Assembly (NCBI GenBank): GCA_028712695.1
Contig: JAQTQZ010000002.1
Span: forward strand, 62,001 to 126,000
Origin: Methylovulum sp.
Lineage (GTDB): Bacteria > Pseudomonadota > Gammaproteobacteria > Methylococcales > Methylomonadaceae
DNA length: 64,000 bases
Direction: 5' to 3'
The notes below the pieces were generated by a model. That model saw nothing but the letters and a program-made list of their open reading frames with translations. It did not search any database and had not been told where the DNA came from. The translations under genes and the position numbers were made by a program. This document shows positions 2,060 to 48,175 of the stretch, piece after piece. Every line of letters begins with the position of its first letter. Position 1 is the stretch's first letter.

Positions 2060-3694
2060 TTAATCACGCATTTGTTTGTATGCGTTAATCAAGGCATTGG
2101 TGGAGCTATCGTGGCTGGTGATGACGTCATCATTTTGCAGTTCCGGCAAAATCACTTTGGCTAATACTTTGCCTAATTCCACGCCCATTTGGTCGAATGA
2201 ATTGATGTTCCAAATAACACCTTGGACAAAAATTTTATGTTCGTAAAGCGCAATAAGTGAGCCCAGGGTTTTAGGCGTCAGTTTTTTGAACAGGAACGAA
2301 TTTGACGGTTTGTTGCCGTCGAATACTTTGGAGGCCACTAATACCTTATCTTCCCGCTCGGCAGGTGAAAGCTGTTGTTTGACTTCTTCAGCCGTTTTGC
2401 CGCGCATTAACGCTTCGGGTTGGGCAAGGAAGTTTGACACTAAAATGTCGTGATGTCCTGGTAGGTTGTAATGGCTGTTAGCGGCGACCATAAAATCAGC
2501 GGGTATCAGTTTAGTGCCTTGATGGATAAGCTGGTAAAACGCATGTTGGCCATTTGTTCCTGGCTGGCCCCAGATAATCGGCCCTGTGTTGTAATCAACT
2601 TTTTCCCCGTTCATGTCAATGTTCTTGCCGTTACTTTCCATGTCACCTTGTTGGAAATAGTCGGCGAAATAGCGCATAGACTGGTCGTAAGGTAGTAAGA
2701 CGTGTGATTCGGCATTAAAGAAATTGTTATACCAAATGCCAAGCAAGGCCATAATGATTGGAATGTTTTGCTCAAATGGCGAATTACGGAAGTGTTCGTC
2801 AACCTCAAAAGCACCCTGTAATAGCGCCTCAAATTGATCCATACCGACATATAAGGCGATAGACAAGCCTACTGCTGACCAGAGCGAATAGCGGCCACCT
2901 ACCCAGTCCCAAAATTCAAACATATTATCGGTATCTATCCCAAATTTAGCGACATTTTCATGATTGGTCGAAATGGCGACAAAGTGTTTGGCAATCGCTT
3001 GCTGGTCTTTTGCGCGGTCAAGAAACCAATTACGTGCCGATGTGGCATTAGTCATGGTTTCTTGGGTATTAAATAGCTTTGACGCGACAATAAATAAGGT
3101 GGTTTCAGCAGATAAAGGCTTTAATGTTTCAACAAGGTTAGCCTGGTCTATGTTCGAGACAAAGTGCACTTTTAAAGTCTCTGAGCCATAAGGGGTAAGG
3201 GCTGTTGCCACCATTTTTGGCCCTAAGCCTGAACCGCCAATCCCAATGTTGACAATATCAGTGATGGTCTTGCCAGTATAACCCCGCCATTCGCCCGAAT
3301 GGATGCGTGTACAAAATGCCCGCATTTTGCCCAAAACTTGATTGATTTGTGGCATGACATCTTGGCCATCCACATAGACAGGTTGGTTGCTTCTGTTGCG
3401 TAAAGCAGTATGCAAAACGGCGCGGTGTTCAGTGGTATTGATATTAGTCCCTGAAAACATGGCGTTGATTTTTTCTTTAAGCTGGGCATGATTGGCAAGG
3501 TCAATCAACAAAGGCAAGGTTTGTTCGGTTATCCGGTTTTTGGAGTAGTCAAAGCGTATGTCATCAAGGGATAGGGAGAATTTGCTGTGGCGATTGGTGT
3601 CTTGTTCAAAAGCATCTCGTAGCGAGGTATTTTTAATTTGGTCAAAATGGTCTTGCAGTGCAGACCAAGCTTTTGAAGTGGTCAGGGATGACAT
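2060..3694 (-). CDS. pgi: Glucose-6-phosphate isomerase (start probably [13 protein letters not shown] extends to 3748)
   Basis: [16 protein letters not shown] and [26 protein letters not shown] motifs. Confidence 0.95.
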
Positions 3695-3887
3695 GTTGAG
3701 GCGGCTCCGTTTAGATTTAGTATGGCGAAAAGGCAGGGAGTATAGCAATAGCGTAATAACAGCATTAGCATTTGAACATATAACGCCGGATGTGCTAGAG
3801 TTGATCCTTGCTATTGGTCAATAATATAGCAAATTAAAGTCATTTTGTGAGGCTCACGCACACTATAAAGAGCATTCGCATTGTTCT

Positions 3888-3924: not shown

Positions 3925-4518
3925 ATGAACACAGCACAGATTTTAAGAAAGGGGTTCTTAGCATTATTTTTAGGGTTATTTATGTCTTCATCGGTATGGG
4001 CTCATGGTGGCGCGGCCGGTACGGATACTGACCAATGTAAATTTGAGATGGAGCCTGGCCACTGGATTCATTACACCGCTTATCAGCCTAAAGATTTTCC
4101 TGCAGAAGACTTTTGCGGCAATATACCTAACGTAAATTCACTGACTCAGCTGGTTTTTGATTATCAAGACGTCCGGTACAGAAATATGTCAGTTGAATTT
4201 GAAGTGACTAAAGAGCCAGAAGGTACCCGTGTATTTTTCCAACCGGCAGCAAAACACAAATCAGGTAGTGTGATGCTGGATTTAAAAAATGGCGTCCCAG
4301 AAGCCGGTAAATATTTGATTCATATTACGTTGGTTCCAGATCAAGGCGAGCGTTTAGATGCGCACATGAGTTTTAAGGCAGGCGCCGGCCAATCGGTTAG
4401 CAAAAATAGTATGTTGCTTTACGCGTTTTTTGCTTTCGCAGGTTTGTATGTATTGTACCTGTCAAATGCGGGCTTTAAACGTATGGTCGATGAAGCTATA
4501 GCAAAAATTAAAAGTTAA
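3925..4518 (+). CDS. Secreted, C-terminally anchored protein of unknown function; predicted mature N-terminus His
   Basis: RBS-like ACAGGAAGG before ATG; signal peptide ...LFMSSSVWA|HGGAAG; C-terminal TM LLYAFFAFAGLYVLYL. Confidence 0.8.
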   Translation: MNTAQILRKGFLALFLGLFMSSSVWAHGGAAGTDTDQCKFEMEPGHWIHYTAYQPKDFPAEDFCGNIPNVNSLTQLVFDYQDVRYRNMSVEFEVTKEPEGTRVFFQPAAKHKSGSVMLDLKNGVPEAGKYLIHITLVPDQGERLDAHMSFKAGAGQSVSKNSMLLYAFFAFAGLYVLYLSNAGFKRMVDEAIAKIKS

Positions 4519-4594
4519 TGGCTGAACCGTGCGGCGCATTTGCTAGTCCCTGATTAGGTATGCTGATGATTATCGAACAAAGAGGAGATAAAGA

Positions 4595-5509
4595 ATGGTG
4601 AAATTATTATCGGTAGGAATGCTGGTTTTGTTTTTTTCTACGCCAGTGCTGGCAAAGGATTATGTGGAGCATGACGGAATGCTTATGGATCATGGTGATG
4701 GCCACTTAATGGATATGGCTGGCGGTATGGTCATGGGCCAGAATGCGGATACATTGCCTGGTGGCTGCGATAGCATAGCTGAAACTAAAGAAATCACTGT
4801 TCATGCCGGTCATCAATATGCTGAAAAATTTCCGGGCAGGATGTTTGCATTTGATACGCAGGAATTTAAATTTAAGCCGTGCACTAAATTAACCATACAT
4901 TTTGTTAATGATGATAGTGTCCGTCATCAATGGATGATGCACGGCCTTCCTAAATATTTATATCCAAAAGGCATGTTCCATCTGGAAATAACAGGTCCCG
5001 CTAAGATTTCCGGTACTTTAATTTTGCCGCCTGGTGATAAAACCTATCTGGTGCATTGCGATATTGCCCAGCACATGGAAAAGGGCATGAAAGCACAATT
5101 AAAAGTCGGGAAAGGCGATGGCGACTTGCCTAGTATTCCTGGTTTAACGGCTAGTGTCGTACCCGATGATTATAAAGCCAGTTTGCCTGAGTTGATTGCT
5201 TCTGCAGAAGCCCTGGAAAAAGAGCTTGCTAGTGCGCCGCCAGTTATAAGTGTAGCTAAAGCACCTGTTGACGTCCCTGTTACACCGTCTGATAATTCTG
5301 TTATTTCAGGTGTTACAGTCGTTGGTTTGGCAATAGGTTTGCTTGTTGCGCCTTTTTTAGCGAGAAAATTTAAAGGGATGAGCCCATCGGAAATAATTGC
5401 CACTATTTTTGAGATGGTGCGGATGGTTTTTGATTTTGTTTTGGGCCTATTATCCCGTTTGATAAAGCGGGTTTCCCCTAACAAAGATAAGATATTGCCT
5501 GAAAATTAG
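4595..5509 (+). CDS. Membrane-anchored cupredoxin-domain protein with His/Met-rich N-terminus
   Basis: Signal peptide; EHDGMLMDHGDGHLMDMAGGMVM; candidate type-1 Cu ligands VRHQW and C-x4-H-x4-M (HCDIAQHMEKGM); C-terminal TM. Confidence 0.8.
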   Translation: MVKLLSVGMLVLFFSTPVLAKDYVEHDGMLMDHGDGHLMDMAGGMVMGQNADTLPGGCDSIAETKEITVHAGHQYAEKFPGRMFAFDTQEFKFKPCTKLTIHFVNDDSVRHQWMMHGLPKYLYPKGMFHLEITGPAKISGTLILPPGDKTYLVHCDIAQHMEKGMKAQLKVGKGDGDLPSIPGLTASVVPDDYKASLPELIASAEALEKELASAPPVISVAKAPVDVPVTPSDNSVISGVTVVGLAIGLLVAPFLARKFKGMSPSEIIATIFEMVRMVFDFVLGLLSRLIKRVSPNKDKILPEN

Positions 5510-5520
5510 GCTTGAACTCA

Positions 5521-5562
5521 AAAAAGCCCCTGTGTCATTTTTGTGCGCAGGGGTTTTTTTTT
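5521..5562 (+). terminator. Rho-independent terminator
   Basis: GCCCCTG...CAGGGG stem followed by a T tract. Confidence 0.8.
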
Positions 5563-5576
5563 GATAAAAATTAAGA

Positions 5577-5999
5577 ATGGGCGAAGTGAGCGAATTATCA
5601 GGGCTATTCATTAGCGCATTTATATCATCTACTGTTGCACCAGGTGGTTCCGAAGCTGTTTTGGCGTATCTGGTTTCGGTAGGGCATTATCCGGTTGGGT
5701 ACTTGCTTATAGTTGCCACAATAGGTAATACGTTGGGAGCAATGACTACCTGGTGGTTAGGTGTGTTGGCGGCAAAAAAATTCCCTGTTGAAACCATGTT
5801 GCCAGAGAGAAAGCAAAGCATGCTCAACATCGTCAAAAAAAAAGGTAGCTGGACGTTGCTTTTTAGCTGGTTACCTGTCGTCGGCGATGCTTTGTGTTTT
5901 GCAGGTGGCTGGCTGAAGCTGCCTTGGTTGCCAGCATGCCTGTTTATATTGGTGGGCAAGTTGGGGCGCTATGCTGCTATAGCATGGCTGTTTATTTAA
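5577..5999 (+). CDS. YqaA/DedA-like small membrane protein
   Basis: SSTVAPGGSEAVLAYLV, IGNTLGAMTTWWLG, FSWLPVVGDALCFAGGWL pattern of YqaA proteins. Confidence 0.75.
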   Translation: MGEVSELSGLFISAFISSTVAPGGSEAVLAYLVSVGHYPVGYLLIVATIGNTLGAMTTWWLGVLAAKKFPVETMLPERKQSMLNIVKKKGSWTLLFSWLPVVGDALCFAGGWLKLPWLPACLFILVGKLGRYAAIAWLFI

Positions 6000-6054
6000 G
6001 ACTCCGGTATAGTTCGCTAATAAATTTATCGTTAAGCGTTAATAAGAGGTTGTT

Positions 6055-6846
6055 GTGCTACGCCATTTTCCAGAAATTAATAGAATTTACCCTCATAAAA
6101 AACGCGATTATTTTATTGCGGCATTTACTTTTTTTTGCGTAGCTGTTTGTTTGTTGAGTGATGCCAATGCCGATATGCTGACACAAAAAATGTTAGGCAT
6201 CTGTGGATGGCTATTTTTATTTGTCTTGCTGCTGGGCGAGAATAAAGAAGTGAGGACGCAAGTTGTCATTGCCGTTATTTTTGCCACTATTGGTGAACAT
6301 TTTGCTTCACCTTATATGGGTGGATACACTTACAGGTTTGGTAATGTGCCCGCGTATGTGCCTCCGGGGCACGGGATGGTTTATTTGACGGCAGTTGCTT
6401 TGGCACGCTCCGGATTCTTTTTAAGATATGCCAGGGAAATTGCCGTATTTGTTGTATTAGTCTGCGGCGCGTGGTCAATCTGGGGAATTAGTGGCTATGC
6501 AGCACAAGGCGATTCTGTTGGCGCCCTACTGTTTTGTGTGTTTTTGGGTTATCTTTTTAAAGGCCGATCCCCGATGGTTTATCTCGCCGCTTTTTTTATT
6601 ACGACCTGGCTTGAGCTCATAGGTACAGCAGTTGGTACTTGGAAGTGGGCCGCTATAGATCCTGTGTTGAGTTTGCCACAGGGCAATCCGCCCAGTGGTG
6701 TTGCAGCTTGGTATTGCTTGGTTGATGCAGTCGCAATTGGTGGTGCCCCGTTGGTTTTGGGTAGAATAAGAAGTGTCCGGGGCTGGTTTAAATCACGATA
6801 TGTGAAAGCTGGAAAACGTGCGTATGAAGGGGCAGGTAACGACTAG
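6055..6846 (+). CDS. Multi-pass membrane protein, function unknown
   Basis: GTG start with AAGAGG upstream; several hydrophobic spans; 263 aa. Confidence 0.7.
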   Translation: MLRHFPEINRIYPHKKRDYFIAAFTFFCVAVCLLSDANADMLTQKMLGICGWLFLFVLLLGENKEVRTQVVIAVIFATIGEHFASPYMGGYTYRFGNVPAYVPPGHGMVYLTAVALARSGFFLRYAREIAVFVVLVCGAWSIWGISGYAAQGDSVGALLFCVFLGYLFKGRSPMVYLAAFFITTWLELIGTAVGTWKWAAIDPVLSLPQGNPPSGVAAWYCLVDAVAIGGAPLVLGRIRSVRGWFKSRYVKAGKRAYEGAGND

Positions 6847-6910
6847 CCGCATGCGTTTAGGGTATATCGTCCCAGGGTCTCGCTGGGATGCAATCAATAA
6901 TTAATATGAG

Positions 6911-7348
6911 GTGTGTATGGAACGTCGTGATTTTATTCGTTTAAGCATGGTGGGTGTGGGTGCAAGTGTAATTATTCCAGCGCAAACATTGGCTGAAAAT
7001 AATAAACAGGTGGCGGTAAAAGGTGATATTTATTACACAAAAGATGAGCCAGGCCGCTGGGGCGGTAAGGTTGCAACGCATTTGCCCAGTATGGAAGTGG
7101 TGAAAGAGGGCGGCAAAGTTGCTGTAAAAGTGGTGACTGCGCATGAAATGAAAGGTTATGAACACTATATCGTCAAGCATGTATTGTTAGATGAAAATTA
7201 TAAGTTTATTGACGAACACCTGTTCAATCCACAAGAAGATAAAGTGGCCATTTCTTCTTTTGCCTTGGAAAATTATAAGGGCACCACTGTGCATGCGCTG
7301 AGTTTATGCAACAAACATGACCTTTGGTTAAACTCTGCTGAAATATGA
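6911..7348 (+). CDS. TAT-exported superoxide-reductase-like (desulfoferrodoxin-like) protein
   Basis: Twin-arginine leader ERRDFIRLSMVGVGA; ATHLP, TAHEMKGYEHYI, LSLCNKHDLW resemble the SOR His4-Cys iron site. Confidence 0.7.
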   Translation: MCMERRDFIRLSMVGVGASVIIPAQTLAENNKQVAVKGDIYYTKDEPGRWGGKVATHLPSMEVVKEGGKVAVKVVTAHEMKGYEHYIVKHVLLDENYKFIDEHLFNPQEDKVAISSFALENYKGTTVHALSLCNKHDLWLNSAEI

Positions 7349-7436
7349 GTCCTGCTAAGATAAAAATCGCACAGGGTGCAAGTTTAGCCACTCTGATTTG
7401 CTAGGCTTCTGATAGCTGGCCGGACTATTTAATGTT

Positions 7437-8612
7437 ATGAAAAAACAAAATATTTTTGATTATCCTTTGTTTGCTTTAGGGTTTAGGGTTTTTTTTGCCT
7501 TGGCAGGATTGTCCGCACTAATTTTGATAGTGCTCTGGAATGCTATTGTTAAAGGAGATTTGTTAGTAGATAACTACTTCGCTGGCAGCTATTGGCATGG
7601 ACATGAAATGTTGCTTGGTTATGCGGTAGCGGTTATTGCCGGATTTTTACTTACCGCAGTTAAAAATTGGACAGGTAGGCCAACTTTGACCGGCGACCAG
7701 TTAGCAGGGCTTTGCCTGCTTTGGTTGTACGGGCGTATTGTGCCATTCTATGCCGGATTGCTGCCGGATGGCTTGATTGCGCTAGTCGATTTCGCTTTTC
7801 TGCCTATGTTAGCTATTCAGGTCAGCAAACCGATCTTGCAGGCAAAGCAAGTAAAAAACTTGGTTTTTATCGCTATCTTGCTGGTGTTGGCATTAGGTAA
7901 TGCGTTGATACATGCTGAAATTTTAGGTTTGCTAAAAAGCTCGGCAGGGATTGGCATTGAATTGGTTGTCGCAACTATTATTGTCCTTATTTTGGTAATT
8001 GCCGGGCGGGTGTTTCCTTTTTTTACAGAGCGTGGCCTGTCGGGAACGTTGATAATAAGAAACCCTCTCTTGGATGGCTTGGCTATTGGCGCGGCTGTTT
8101 TAGTTTTTACTATGCAATTAGCGGATGTTTCGGGCGGAGTTTTAGCTACGTTGGCGATTATAGCGGCACTTGTTAATAGCGCTAGATTATCGGGATGGTA
8201 TGTGCGACGGATATGGTATGTCCCGTTGCTGTGGGTGCTATATGTCGGTTATGGCTGGATTATTGCCGGTTTTCTTTTGACCGCATTGGCGGCGTATTCT
8301 TTGGTGATGCCCGCTTTAGCGTTACATGCTTTTACGGTAGGCGGCATTGCCGTCCTGACCTTGGGGATGATGGCGCGGGTGTCATTAGGCCATACGGGCA
8401 GGGCATTGAAAGTTTCTAATGCCATTGCAATCGCTTTTGTATTAATCAATTTGGCCACCTTGTTTAGGGTTCTGTTGCCGATAGCGATACCCGACTGGTA
8501 TGGCTTATTGGTTTATGTTTCAACATTATGCTGGCTTGCCGCATTTGCTTTGTTTGTTTTTGTGTATATGCCGATTCTTGCTCGTGCCAGAATAGATGGG
8601 CAAGAAGGCTAA
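7437..8612 (+). CDS. nnrS: NnrS family haem/copper-type membrane protein
   Basis: Start FDYPLFALGFRVFFALAGLSALILI, SYWHGHEMLLGYAVAVIAGFLLTAVKNWTGRPT, LGHTGRAL are NnrS hallmarks. Confidence 0.88.
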   Translation: MKKQNIFDYPLFALGFRVFFALAGLSALILIVLWNAIVKGDLLVDNYFAGSYWHGHEMLLGYAVAVIAGFLLTAVKNWTGRPTLTGDQLAGLCLLWLYGRIVPFYAGLLPDGLIALVDFAFLPMLAIQVSKPILQAKQVKNLVFIAILLVLALGNALIHAEILGLLKSSAGIGIELVVATIIVLILVIAGRVFPFFTERGLSGTLIIRNPLLDGLAIGAAVLVFTMQLADVSGGVLATLAIIAALVNSARLSGWYVRRIWYVPLLWVLYVGYGWIIAGFLLTALAAYSLVMPALALHAFTVGGIAVLTLGMMARVSLGHTGRALKVSNAIAIAFVLINLATLFRVLLPIAIPDWYGLLVYVSTLCWLAAFALFVFVYMPILARARIDGQEG

Positions 8613-44198: not shown

Positions 44199-44813
44199 AT
44201 GGCTATCCAGAAACAATTTGTTTTACGTTACCGCGAAGAGGGGCACATCCGTTTTGAAATCCCTGCCCAGTTTTGTGAGCCAAACACCGCCAAAGCATTG
44301 ACGGCTACGCTTTTAAAGTTAGAGGGTGTTTATCGGGTCGCACTTTATGCCAGCCAAAAAAAACTCTCCATCCGTTACCAAGAAACTGTTTGTGATTTTA
44401 AGACCTTGGCAAAGTCCCTATACCGGATTATTGCCGAATTAGATCAAAAAGCACCCGTTACAAAAAGGGAAACAGCAATCGGCAAATTGCCATCAATCAA
44501 AACCAAACTCAAGAATTCAAGCGTCGGCAAGTGGTTCAACCAAAAATACACCGACACTAAAGAAACCATAGAAGCCGCTAAAATTTTAACTAAAGTCGGC
44601 ATGAAGCAACAAAAATCCCTGCTCAATAATCCCGAAAAGGCGATGATTGATTTCTTCAATGACATGCTGGTGATTTTTTTGATCAAGCTGCATTGGGAAC
44701 ACATCACTAAAGCCTGGATTCCCAACCCGTTAAAGTACCGCTATGAATGGCTGGCGGTGTTCTATATGTTCTTTTTACTGATGCGCTCGCGTAACCCAAA
44801 ACAACCAAAGTAA
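44199..44813 (+). CDS. HMA-like membrane protein lacking CxxC
   Basis: EGHIRFEIPAQFCEPNTAKALTATLLKLEGVYRVALYASQKKLSIRYQE HMA-like fold pattern; C-terminal TM. Confidence 0.65.
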   Translation: MAIQKQFVLRYREEGHIRFEIPAQFCEPNTAKALTATLLKLEGVYRVALYASQKKLSIRYQETVCDFKTLAKSLYRIIAELDQKAPVTKRETAIGKLPSIKTKLKNSSVGKWFNQKYTDTKETIEAAKILTKVGMKQQKSLLNNPEKAMIDFFNDMLVIFLIKLHWEHITKAWIPNPLKYRYEWLAVFYMFFLLMRSRNPKQPK

Positions 44814-44882
44814 CAACGTTGTCTTGTTGCCGCCTATTTCTCCAAAAATGTCACTCAACGCTTTATTTTTACAGGTCTAGCA

Positions 44883-47327
44883 ATGGATATGATGCCGACT
44901 TACCAAAATTTCAGCCTGGTCCACCAACTCAAAAGACGTATCCGCATTATTGCCCCCGCGTTAAAACGTGATCCTGAACGCGGTTACATTTTTGAAATCC
45001 TGCTAAAAAAACGCCATGAAATCAAACGGGTACGCTCAATATTTGCGTTAGGCTCAGTAGTGATTGAGTTTGATCCCAAACGCCTGCCTAAAGCAAACCT
45101 ATTAATCATGCTCGATGCTATTTTGGGCAATATGGGAGGCAAGGGCACTCTCGGTGCAAACCAACCCAAAGCGCTTACCGGGCCATTAAAGGAAATTGAT
45201 CTGGCAGTTGAAGGTATGACCTGTGCTTCGTGTGCATTATTGCTGGAAATGGTGTTGAAGCGTGACCCAAAAATAAAACAGGCCAGCGTCAATTTTGGCA
45301 CGGAAACCTTGACTGTCCACGGGCAATTAAGCAAAGAAGATGTTTGCGCCTGCATCGAAAGCTTAGGCTATAAAGCCTATCCAATGGACACGCTCTCGCA
45401 ACGCAAAAAAATAATTGAAAAAGAACAGTTTCGGATTGAGTCCGCACGGCATCGTTTGCTCTGGTCGGCAATTTTAAGTGCACCGGTTATTGCTGTTGCC
45501 ATGTCCATGACCCAATCCCGCCCGCTGCATTGGCTGCAATTTCTGCTGGCAACGCCGGTGGTGTTCTGGTCAGGAAAGCCCTTTTTTGACAAAGCCCTCC
45601 GTCTGGCCAAGCACCGCGCCGCCAACATGGACTCTTTAATCGCGTTAGGCGTAGGCTCTGCCTATTTATACAGCTTGCCGACTTTTTTCCTGCGCCGGGG
45701 CCATGTCTATTTTGAGGCGGCAGCGGCAATCATCACTTTTGTGCTGTTAGGGCGTTATCTGGAAGAAAAGGCCAAAGGCAAAGCGGGCGAAGCGATCCGG
45801 CAATTGGTCGATTTGCAGCCGCAGACTGCCACGCTATTGAAAGACGACCAAGAATTCACCGTCGATGCAGACAGTTTGCAGGTTGGCGATGTGCTGCTGA
45901 TCCGGCCTGGGGAAAAAATCCCGGCCGATGGCGTCATTATCCACGGCATTTCCACGGTCGACGAATCGATGGTGACTGGCGAAAGCATGCCGGTGGTCAA
46001 AGAAATCGGCGGCCGCGTCATTGCTGGCTGTGTCAACGGCACCGGCGTGTTACGGGTTAAAGTCACCGCAGTGGGTATGGATACCGTGCTGGCGGGCATC
46101 GTCCATATGATCGACCAAGCCCAATCCGCCAAACTGCCCATCCAAAAGCAAGTCGATAAAATTTCCGCCGTGTTCGTCCCCAGTGTCATGGCAATCTCCG
46201 GCCTGACGTTTGTCGGTTGGATGATGGCCGGTGCACCATTTGCGCTGGCTTTTGGCAATGCCATCACCGTATTGTTGATTGCCTGCCCGTGTGCCCTAGG
46301 TTTGGCAACCCCGGCGGCGATTATGGTCGGCACTGGTCAAGCGGCTAAAAAAGGGATTTATATCCGCAACGGTGAAAGCTTGGAAATCGCCGCAAAGCTA
46401 AATGTCATCGTCTTTGACAAAACCGGCACGATTACCGAAGGCAAGCCAAAAGTCAGCGACTTTCTAAAACTGTCGCGGTTGGGCCAAGATAAAATCATCA
46501 TGCTGGCGGCATCGGCGGAACATAATTCCGAGCATTTTTTGGGTAGGGCCATCGTTGATTATGCCCGCGAACAGGCCATCGCCCTTAAAGAAAGCAGCCA
46601 TTTTTACAGCGAAACAGGGCGCGGCATCCTCGCCGAAATTGACGGCAAAACCGTCTTGCTGGGCAATCAAGCGTGGCTGGATGAACAGCAAGTGGCGATT
46701 CCAGGCTTGCTGGAAGCTGCCCGACACTATTCGGAGCAAGGAAAAACCCCCGTGTTCATGGCCGTCAACGGCAAAGAAGCCGCTGTTTTCGGCATTGCCG
46801 ACAAACCTAAAGAACACGCCCTGGAAGCCATCGCCAAACTGCACAAACTTGGCATTGAAACGCTAATGGCAACTGGCGACACCGAACGCACCGCGCATTA
46901 CATTGCCGCCCAAGTCGGCATTGGACAAGTCATTGCCAACGCAAAACCAGAACAAAAACTGGCGATCATCGAAGCCTTGAAAGCCCAAGGGAAACTAGTC
47001 GGCATGATAGGTGACGGTGTAAATGACGCCCCCGCCTTGACTGCCGCCAGCGTCGGTTTTGCAATTGGCAGCGGCACCGATATTGCGATTGAGTCTGCCG
47101 ACCTGACCTTGGTGCAGGGCGACATCACCAAAGTCGCGGACGCCATTGGCTTAAGCAAAGACACTATTGTGATTATCAAACAAAATTTATTCTGGGCATT
47201 CGCCTATAACACCATTGCCATTCCAGTCGCGGCAATGGGACGGCTCAACCCGATGCTGGCCTCTGCCGCGATGGCCTTAAGCTCAGTATCGGTGGTTGTC
47301 AATTCATTACGCTTAAGTCGGAGGTAG
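44883..47327 (+). CDS. P1B-type heavy-metal (probably Cu) translocating ATPase
   Basis: GMTCASCALLLEMVLK; LLIACPCALGLATPAAIMVG (CPC); VFDKTGTITEGKP; MIGDGVNDAPAL. Confidence 0.95.
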   Translation: MDMMPTYQNFSLVHQLKRRIRIIAPALKRDPERGYIFEILLKKRHEIKRVRSIFALGSVVIEFDPKRLPKANLLIMLDAILGNMGGKGTLGANQPKALTGPLKEIDLAVEGMTCASCALLLEMVLKRDPKIKQASVNFGTETLTVHGQLSKEDVCACIESLGYKAYPMDTLSQRKKIIEKEQFRIESARHRLLWSAILSAPVIAVAMSMTQSRPLHWLQFLLATPVVFWSGKPFFDKALRLAKHRAANMDSLIALGVGSAYLYSLPTFFLRRGHVYFEAAAAIITFVLLGRYLEEKAKGKAGEAIRQLVDLQPQTATLLKDDQEFTVDADSLQVGDVLLIRPGEKIPADGVIIHGISTVDESMVTGESMPVVKEIGGRVIAGCVNGTGVLRVKVTAVGMDTVLAGIVHMIDQAQSAKLPIQKQVDKISAVFVPSVMAISGLTFVGWMMAGAPFALAFGNAITVLLIACPCALGLATPAAIMVGTGQAAKKGIYIRNGESLEIAAKLNVIVFDKTGTITEGKPKVSDFLKLSRLGQDKIIMLAASAEHNSEHFLGRAIVDYAREQAIALKESSHFYSETGRGILAEIDGKTVLLGNQAWLDEQQVAIPGLLEAARHYSEQGKTPVFMAVNGKEAAVFGIADKPKEHALEAIAKLHKLGIETLMATGDTERTAHYIAAQVGIGQVIANAKPEQKLAIIEALKAQGKLVGMIGDGVNDAPALTAASVGFAIGSGTDIAIESADLTLVQGDITKVADAIGLSKDTIVIIKQNLFWAFAYNTIAIPVAAMGRLNPMLASAAMALSSVSVVVNSLRLSRR

Positions 47328-47335
47328 GAATACAA

Positions 47336-48175
47336 ATGGATCACTCTATGATGGATCATAGTATGCACGGCATGGCCGATATGGGCATGGCAAGCGGCGG
47401 CTTTGATTATACCCTGGCGTTTGTTGCCGGATTTTTAGGGAGCGGGCATTGCTTAGGGATGTGCGGGGCGCTGGTGTCGGGTTATTTTATGAATGCCGGC
47501 AAAAACAGCTCGTACCTGCCTTATTTTCTGTACCAGATTGCCCGAATTTCAGTGTATACGCTGGTCGGTTTTGCCGCCGCCTCGCTAGGCGTGGTGATCG
47601 TGTCCAGTGGCCTGTTCGGTAAAGTCCAAAGCCTGCTGCAAATGTTCATCGGGTTAGTCGTTATTCTATTGGCGTTCGGCATATTAGGCTGGATTCCATG
47701 GCAGGGTTCGATCAGGCTGTTGCCCATGAAGTGGTTGCGCAAAGGTTATAGCAGCTCACGAACCAAAGGCCCGCTCATCGGCAGCCTGTTTGCCGGCCTG
47801 TTAAATGGCATGATGCCTTGCCCGCTGACTTTTGCGATGGCGGTAAAAGCCACCTCAGCACCTAGCATTTATGAAGGTGGCGCACTGATGCTGGCGTTTG
47901 GTGCGGGCACTTTGCCAATGATGCTGTTTATCAGCGTCGCGTTCGGGAAAATAAACGCCCATATCCGCGGCCTGATGCTTAAAACAGCGGCTTTAATCAT
48001 GGTGTTTATGGGCTACAACACGTTTTACCGGGGCTTGAGCTTTTATGCCGACGAAAACTTCAAGCACCACAACTATTTTAATATCTTGAAAGAACGGATT
48101 GATGAGCTAATTGCCTACTTATCGCAAATAGTCAGTTATTTTTCAGACCTCGTGACCAACATCCAAAACATGTAG
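47336..48175 (+). CDS. SafE/TauE-like (UreH/DsbD-like TM) protein with His/Met-rich N-terminus
   Basis: MDHSMMDHSMHGMADMGMASGG; FLGSGHCLGMCGALVSGYF; GLLNGMMPCPLTFAM. Confidence 0.88.
   Translation: MDHSMMDHSMHGMADMGMASGGFDYTLAFVAGFLGSGHCLGMCGALVSGYFMNAGKNSSYLPYFLYQIARISVYTLVGFAAASLGVVIVSSGLFGKVQSLLQMFIGLVVILLAFGILGWIPWQGSIRLLPMKWLRKGYSSSRTKGPLIGSLFAGLLNGMMPCPLTFAMAVKATSAPSIYEGGALMLAFGAGTLPMMLFISVAFGKINAHIRGLMLKTAALIMVFMGYNTFYRGLSFYADENFKHHNYFNILKERIDELIAYLSQIVSYFSDLVTNIQNM

Follow-up and report, generated by a model that had tools for sequence, protein, structure and literature searches.

The window analysed here is a stretch of 64,000 nucleotides from Methylovulum sp. (bases 62001-126000 of contig JAQTQZ010000002.1, our C38), and belongs to a genome of 3.79 Mb that is 99.98% complete and carries pmoCAB. 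Six consecutive open reading frames (ORFs) lie on the plus strand between positions 3925 and 8612, numbered as genes 1 to 6 in Table 1. A preliminary description, made from the bare sequence, had presented them as one copper and reactive-species cluster interrupted by a terminator, and all six genes as well as the terminator were borne out. The main subject of this analysis is the pair at the left end, genes 1 and 2, coding for a PmoD-family protein and a membrane-anchored cupredoxin, and its recurrence in other genomes next to membrane-bound copper enzymes.

Table 1. Features of the locus, given in window coordinates (aa, amino acids).
Feature	Position	Strand	Basis or remark
pgi (glucose-6-phosphate isomerase)	2060..3748	-	divergent left neighbour; flank, outside the system
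Gene 1, PmoD-family, predicted copper protein, 197 aa	3925..4518	+	6CPD similarity, invariant residues
Putative copper-binding segment of gene 1, His27 to Cys64, C-x10-H-xn-C	4003..4116	+	conservation, published motif classes (PMC6189053)
Gene 2, type-1-like cupredoxin (304 aa) with membrane anchor and a leader rich in Met/His	4595..5509	+	Pfam, conservation
Met/His-rich leader of gene 2, residues 21-58	4655..4768	+	conservation in orthologues
Type-1 copper loop of gene 2, HCDIAQHMEKGM (Cx4Hx4M)	5054..5089	+	invariant in 25 orthologues
Intrinsic terminator closing the gene 1-2 transcription unit	5518..5564	+	fold energy and positional conservation
Gene 3, VTT/DedA(YqaA)-like small membrane protein (140 aa)	5577..5999	+	weak VTT match, neighbourhood
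Gene 4, polytopic membrane protein without known family, 263 aa	6055..6846, GTG start	+	no Pfam family
Gene 5, superoxide-reductase-like protein with RR signal (Tat-type), accessory neighbour	6917..7348	+	Pfam Desulfoferrodox, superoxide reductase profile
Gene 6, NnrS, lineage-specific neighbour outside the core	7437..8612	+	Pfam NnrS

Gene 1 is, judging by its sequence, a PmoD. The single sequence matches the PmoD structure 6CPD in the PDB with a phmmer E value of 5.6e-4, and a profile built from 27 orthologues (A1) finds 6CPD at 1.2e-7 as its sole PDB match. This rules out a view of gene 1 as an unknown protein, and of the two uncharacterised members announced in the preliminary description only gene 4, which belongs to no Pfam family, keeps that status. 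The product is predicted to consist of a signal peptide, a periplasmic domain and a C-terminal membrane anchor, in line with the secreted protein with an N-terminal His proposed before: His27, the predicted mature N-terminus, is invariant across the 27 orthologues, as are C38, H49 and C64. The two invariant Cys residues in the secreted domain are a feature of the PmoD/AmoD family (Fisher et al. 2018, PMC6189053), with which gene 1 also shares sequence similarity, the signal peptide and the C-terminal anchor, and relatives of gene 1 likewise sit in pmo/amo operons. However, gene 1 does not contain the CuA motif Cx7MxHxnC and is thereby ruled out as a CuA-type PmoD: the protein and most of its orthologues show C-x8-W-I-H, with the His at C+11 (C-x10-H) and a Trp at the position of the CuA Met, whereas most of the cassette relatives discussed below carry C-x9-H. 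By the published motif classes gene 1 should bind copper without forming CuA; other PmoDs, including further motif classes, bind copper as well (PMC6189053). Two further differences from the described family are that gene 1 lies outside the pmo operon in this lineage, and that some of its relatives occur beside a caa3 oxidase in genomes in which no copper membrane monooxygenase (CuMMO) was found. A second PmoD was not found in the genome of the window with either the single sequence (E up to 10) or the profile, and gene 1 is apparently the only PmoD of this pmoCAB-bearing genome. It has already been reported that the pmo operon of gammaproteobacterial methanotrophs is devoid of PmoD, that PmoD occurs near multicopper oxidases, and that loss of pmoD in Methylosinus leads to a copper-dependent growth defect (all PMC6189053).

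Gene 2 matches Pfam Cu-oxidase_2 with 22.3 bits, above the cut-off, and contains the ligand set His/Cys/His/Met of type-1 cupredoxins in invariant positions (C155, H160, M165 and H111/H116). The segment RHQWMMH (residues 110-116), which probably provides the first type-1 His ligand, is invariant in the same 25 orthologues as the copper loop, and the H/C/H/M positions of the family are retained in 17 diverse homologues (43-65% identity to the first). Both the C-x4-H-x4-M loop and the His/Met-rich leader recorded in the preliminary description are thus present and conserved, the leader with the invariant residues H26, M31, H33, H37, M39, M45 and M47. A C-terminal helix region follows the cupredoxin domain in the AlphaFold2 model, which is of low confidence (pLDDT 67.9); its best Foldseek matches are CuA, nitrous oxide reductase (N2OR), laccase and auracyanin domains with E values of at least 0.014, and would back the fold class only. 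Among proteins of solved structure, the closest in sequence are two-domain laccases, through their type-1 domains. Gene 2 has the type-1 ligand set in common with the C-terminal type-1 domain of these laccases or multicopper oxidases (4gxf, 3cg8) and with single-domain cupredoxins such as auracyanin and AcoP, and resembles them weakly in sequence and fold. It is set apart by being a single domain with an Asp replacing the type-3 His after the Cys (HCD), by its Met/His leader and C-terminal anchor, and by the fact that no member of solved structure was found by sequence. AcoP was ruled out as the family of gene 2 by the ligand spacing, which is C-x6-H in AcoP and C-x4-H here. No description of the gene 2 family was found in the open-access papers searched, where absence is no proof.

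A survey of the Methylomonas family (121 genomes from 29 genera, 104 of them good) shows how tightly the two genes are conserved: gene 1 was found in 104 of the 104 good genomes, gene 2 in 103 and gene 4 in 101. Of the 41 loci mapped, 39 have gene 2 after gene 1 and 35 each have genes 3 and 4 next in line, and a multicopper oxidase (MCO) of about 580 aa with a C-terminal hydrophobic stretch is encoded between genes 1 and 2 in nine. A divergent pgi homologue (cluster c3) lies to the left of gene 1 in nearly all of these loci. Methylomonas methanica, Methylomonas sp. LW13 and Methylomonas koyamae have the gene order 1-2-3-4 as in the window, and the divergent pgi is kept in the first two. The terminator behind gene 2 folds with -24.4 kcal/mol (z = -6.0), and a hairpin resembling a terminator is found at the junction of genes 2 and 3 in 32 of 35 family loci, compared with 6/28, 5/33 and 2/13 loci at the other tested junctions. 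Genes 1-2 and genes 3 onward are therefore separate transcription units, as the preliminary description had suggested for genes 1-2 and 3-6. Two loci from genus g22 (L141, L142) have PmoD beside pgi with the adjacent cupredoxin lost and a cupredoxin encoded elsewhere, and may represent a natural test of the pairing.

The genome of the window codes for PmoB (641 bits) and PmoA (433 bits), with no pmoD directly behind pmoB. Among 274 gammaproteobacterial genomes, the gene 2 profile was found in nine and PmoB also in nine, with eight in common (Fisher p 1.1e-13, a value overstating independence in this family-structured sample), and the cupredoxin was not found in most of the Gammaproteobacteria sampled. 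In the wider Gammaproteobacteria the pair usually flanks an MCO with conserved HxHG motifs, giving the order PmoD-MCO-cupredoxin, which is also seen in Methylococcus capsulatus Texas (L309). This cassette stands directly behind pmoCAB in about 20 loci overall, and the complete order pmoC-pmoA-pmoB-PmoD-MCO-cupredoxin is found in G201 (L208), G127 (L226) and G440 (L216). Of 80 loci scanned, which were ranked by similarity to the L208 protein and hence form a non-random sample, 69 contain an MCO and 60 a PmoD, and about 17 have pmo genes immediately upstream. Moreover, L302 and L306 have pmoCAB at a distance of about 3 kb from the pgi-1-2-3-4 cluster. The genome of the window also contains a second MCO together with a second, shorter cupredoxin (C19:128772-131000, L221:9674-12001), placed downstream of an ABC-transporter/auxiliary gene set, and similar pairs occur in L225, L234, L240 and L241. 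The arrangement recalls the pmoCAB-pmoD-copC-copD-pCuAC operon of alphaproteobacterial methanotrophs, in which PmoD is likewise found beside periplasmic copper proteins and tied to particulate methane monooxygenase (pMMO), but the partners here are a cupredoxin and, in relatives, an MCO instead of CopCD/PCuAC. In one locus of family f6 (L224:7193-8683), a gene resembling SBP56/methanethiol oxidase by eye stands beside a PmoD-MCO-cupredoxin-VTT cluster.

The cassette occurs in a second setting. PmoB was found in 7 of 39 further genomes checked, and PmoA was not found in 18 of the genomes containing the loci, nor in G235 and G357; many of these are draft metagenome-assembled genomes, and G235 is a single contig of 99% completeness. 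Genomes such as G235, in which neither PmoB nor PmoA was detected, rule out a strict limitation of the cassette to monooxygenase genomes. In eight loci from genomes of this kind (L210:7545-16367 in G235, L261, L263, L275, L286, L304, L308 and L313) the cassette adjoins CoxB, CoxA and, contig allowing, CoxC and CoxIV, often together with heme-o synthase, and in a ninth (L258) heme-o synthase only. The CoxB of these loci carries a fused cytochrome c and is thus of the caa3 type, and their PmoDs match 6CPD at 5e-19. In G235 the order is CtaB-CoxB-CoxA-CoxC-CoxC-CoxIV-PmoD-MCO-cupredoxin, and from CoxIV onwards the genes are separated by no more than tens of bases. A midpoint-rooted tree of the concatenated PmoD-MCO-cupredoxin sequences from 62 loci places all nine of these loci within a 24-tip group that contains no pmo-linked locus. 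Its sister is a group of 9 pmo-linked tips (support 0.999), both lie inside a 33-tip group (support 1.0), and pmo-linked loci are found on both sides of the root. The topology suggests, but does not establish, a single switch from a CuMMO to caa3 oxidase, since no support value is attached in the rooted output to the branch leading to the 24-tip group. A PmoD homologue also occurs on G357:C11 (L227:9723-10706), in a genome where PmoB, PmoA and the cupredoxin were not found.

Isolated pMMO is less active than whole cells, its copper source and reductant in vivo are unsettled, and PmoD is the leading accessory candidate. As judged from homology, conservation, linkage and co-occurrence, we consider it moderately probable that genes 1-2 are the methanotroph form of a PmoD-(MCO)-cupredoxin cassette which serves membrane copper-dependent O2 enzymes, here pMMO; the latter is favoured because no pmoD adjoins the pmoCAB genes of this genome, in which gene 1 is the one PmoD that could be detected. 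The cassette would then act as a periplasmic copper-supply (or electron) system for membrane copper oxidases. Both proteins would reside on the periplasmic face, each held by its C-terminal anchor, and copper would be bound by the Met/His-rich leader and the type-1 site of the cupredoxin and by the N-terminal His/Cys site of PmoD. The MCO, encoded between genes 1 and 2 in many relatives and here elsewhere next to the second cupredoxin, may set the redox state of periplasmic copper, and PmoD would pass the metal to PmoB/PmoC. That the proteins bind copper and are anchored, which way transfer goes, and that pMMO is the client here are all inferred. Several observations weigh against this proposal. 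Gene 1 is devoid of the CuA motif, and therefore the one well-studied copper site of PmoD cannot be taken for granted; gene 2 has a type-1 site that fits electron transfer as well as copper carriage; the MCO is missing from the cluster in the window; the cassette is not confined to monooxygenase genomes; and genes 3 and 4 have no assigned role, with gene 4 also present in two genomes where PmoB was not found (G262, G391).

The chief alternative is electron delivery, given the intact type-1 site and the example of AcoP, a cupredoxin that partners an oxidase. In this case the cupredoxin and PmoD would feed electrons instead of copper to pMMO, or to the caa3 oxidase of the relatives. The conservation of the H/C/H/M ligands in 17 of 17 diverse homologues would agree with such a wire, as would the fact that both partner enzymes consume electrons and O2. 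Moreover, AcoP is encoded together with a cytochrome oxidase and binds to it (PMC4059628), and PmoD as a source of reducing equivalents is among the options named in PMC6189053. However, the CoxB of the caa3 oxidases already has its own fused cytochrome c domains, neither the Met/His leader nor the MCO has an obvious place in a wire, and gene 1 contains no CuA motif, so that we regard this explanation as unlikely, if worth keeping in mind. A general periplasmic copper tolerance system, in which the three proteins of the cassette would buffer Cu(I) and oxidise it in the manner of CueO/CopC with no dedicated client enzyme, would account for the HxHG motifs of the MCO, the leader of gene 2 and the presence of the cassette in genomes in which no monooxygenase was found, but appears improbable, as client enzymes are indicated by its position after pmoCAB or next to cox genes and by the co-occurrence with PmoB, and its phylogenetic range is restricted, excluding most of the sampled Gammaproteobacteria.

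Copper supply to membrane enzymes thus remains the favoured function, because the cassette is shared by two different membrane enzymes, both of which require copper on their periplasmic side; a role common to two unrelated enzymes of this kind makes copper supply more likely than substrate-specific electron delivery. In a more far-reaching version, which we offer as a tentative possibility, PmoD-MCO-cupredoxin would be a portable copper-loading machine without specificity for methane or ammonia oxidation and with an ancestry in the CuMMO operon, which moved to caa3 oxidase in one gammaproteobacterial lineage, perhaps replacing a CuA assembly of the SCO/PCuAC type. In Methylomonas-type methanotrophs it would have become separated from pmoCAB, with gene 2 as an unrecognised universal partner of pMMO. 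Three points appear to be new, namely that PmoD has a cupredoxin dedicated to it, that the two are paired almost universally in Methylomonas-type methanotrophs, and that the cassette is shared with caa3 oxidase. Methylomonas sp. DH-1 was chosen for an engineering study because its pmo operon contains no pmoD (PMC8764830). The present survey points to PmoD and its dedicated cupredoxin lying outside the pmo operon in essentially every genome of the Methylomonas family. Published work regards PmoD as a protein of methane and ammonia oxidisers only, and the cassettes beside caa3 oxidase in genomes in which no monooxygenase was found would, if confirmed, revise this view.

The genes at the right end of the cluster belong to the families assigned to them before. 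Gene 5 matches Pfam Desulfoferrodox (31.7 bits, cut-off 22.2), carries an RR signal as expected for export by twin-arginine translocation (TAT), and its profile matches superoxide reductase (SOR) 1do6 at E 7e-6. It belongs to the SOR class that has no desulforedoxin domain, and all five ligands of the Fe, four His and one Cys (H55, H76, H83, C131, H134), are invariant in 12 sequences. In contrast, the Glu-Lys pair that precedes the first of the ligand His residues (EKH) and contains the catalytic Lys is missing: all 12 sequences show ATH, AGH or GTH, and the pair is likewise absent in the alignment with 1do6. Gene 5 thus differs from known SORs by the export signal and the absence of this motif, and as an optional neighbour of the cluster it is found in 50 of the 104 good family genomes (57 of all 121) and follows in 15 of the 41 loci. 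Gene 6 is a full-length NnrS (373 bits to Pfam NnrS, residues 10-385); it is an optional, lineage-specific neighbour of the cluster, adjoining in 2 of the 41 loci, namely the window and its closest sibling. No description of NnrS and SOR together in methanotrophs was found in a literature search. The preliminary description had combined all six genes into a periplasmic Cu-dependent module handling nitric oxide (NO) and superoxide; the copper part of this idea stands and co-occurrence elsewhere holds for genes 1-4, whereas a six-gene unit is ruled out by the neighbourhoods together with the conserved terminator. The family membership of genes 5 and 6 and their downstream position on the same strand speak for the module, but it is very improbable and not supported, because the SOR-like gene and NnrS occur in so few loci, compared with the near-universal genes 1-2, because the terminator parts the latter from the rest, and because the SOR-like protein lacks the Glu-Lys pair.

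Genes 3 and 4 should be regarded as a separate co-inherited membrane unit. The YqaA/DedA-like character proposed for gene 3 is hinted at by a weak VTT match (28.9 bits, below the Pfam cut-off of 33.9), and a homologue also follows the cupredoxin in the pmoCAB operon of L226. Gene 4 was correctly recorded as an unassigned membrane protein: 24 members gave only scattered weak Pfam matches, the profile found no match among PDB sequences, and the confident AlphaFold2 model (pLDDT 86.7) found no fold match in the PDB. The family contains invariant motifs of the PPGHGxVYLTA and QGNPPSG types. The neighbours of distant homologues, judged by eye as Tex-like, pyrophosphatase and dienelactone hydrolase-like proteins, gave no functional lead. 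A gene 4 homologue in L223 (449 aa) has an apparent fused extra N-terminal part, and further members occur in L228-L231. Finally, positions 44199-48175 of the window appear by eye to hold a copper-type locus, coding for a small-domain protein, a CopA/FixI-type P-type ATPase and a TauE-like membrane protein with the leader MDHSMMDHSMHGM.

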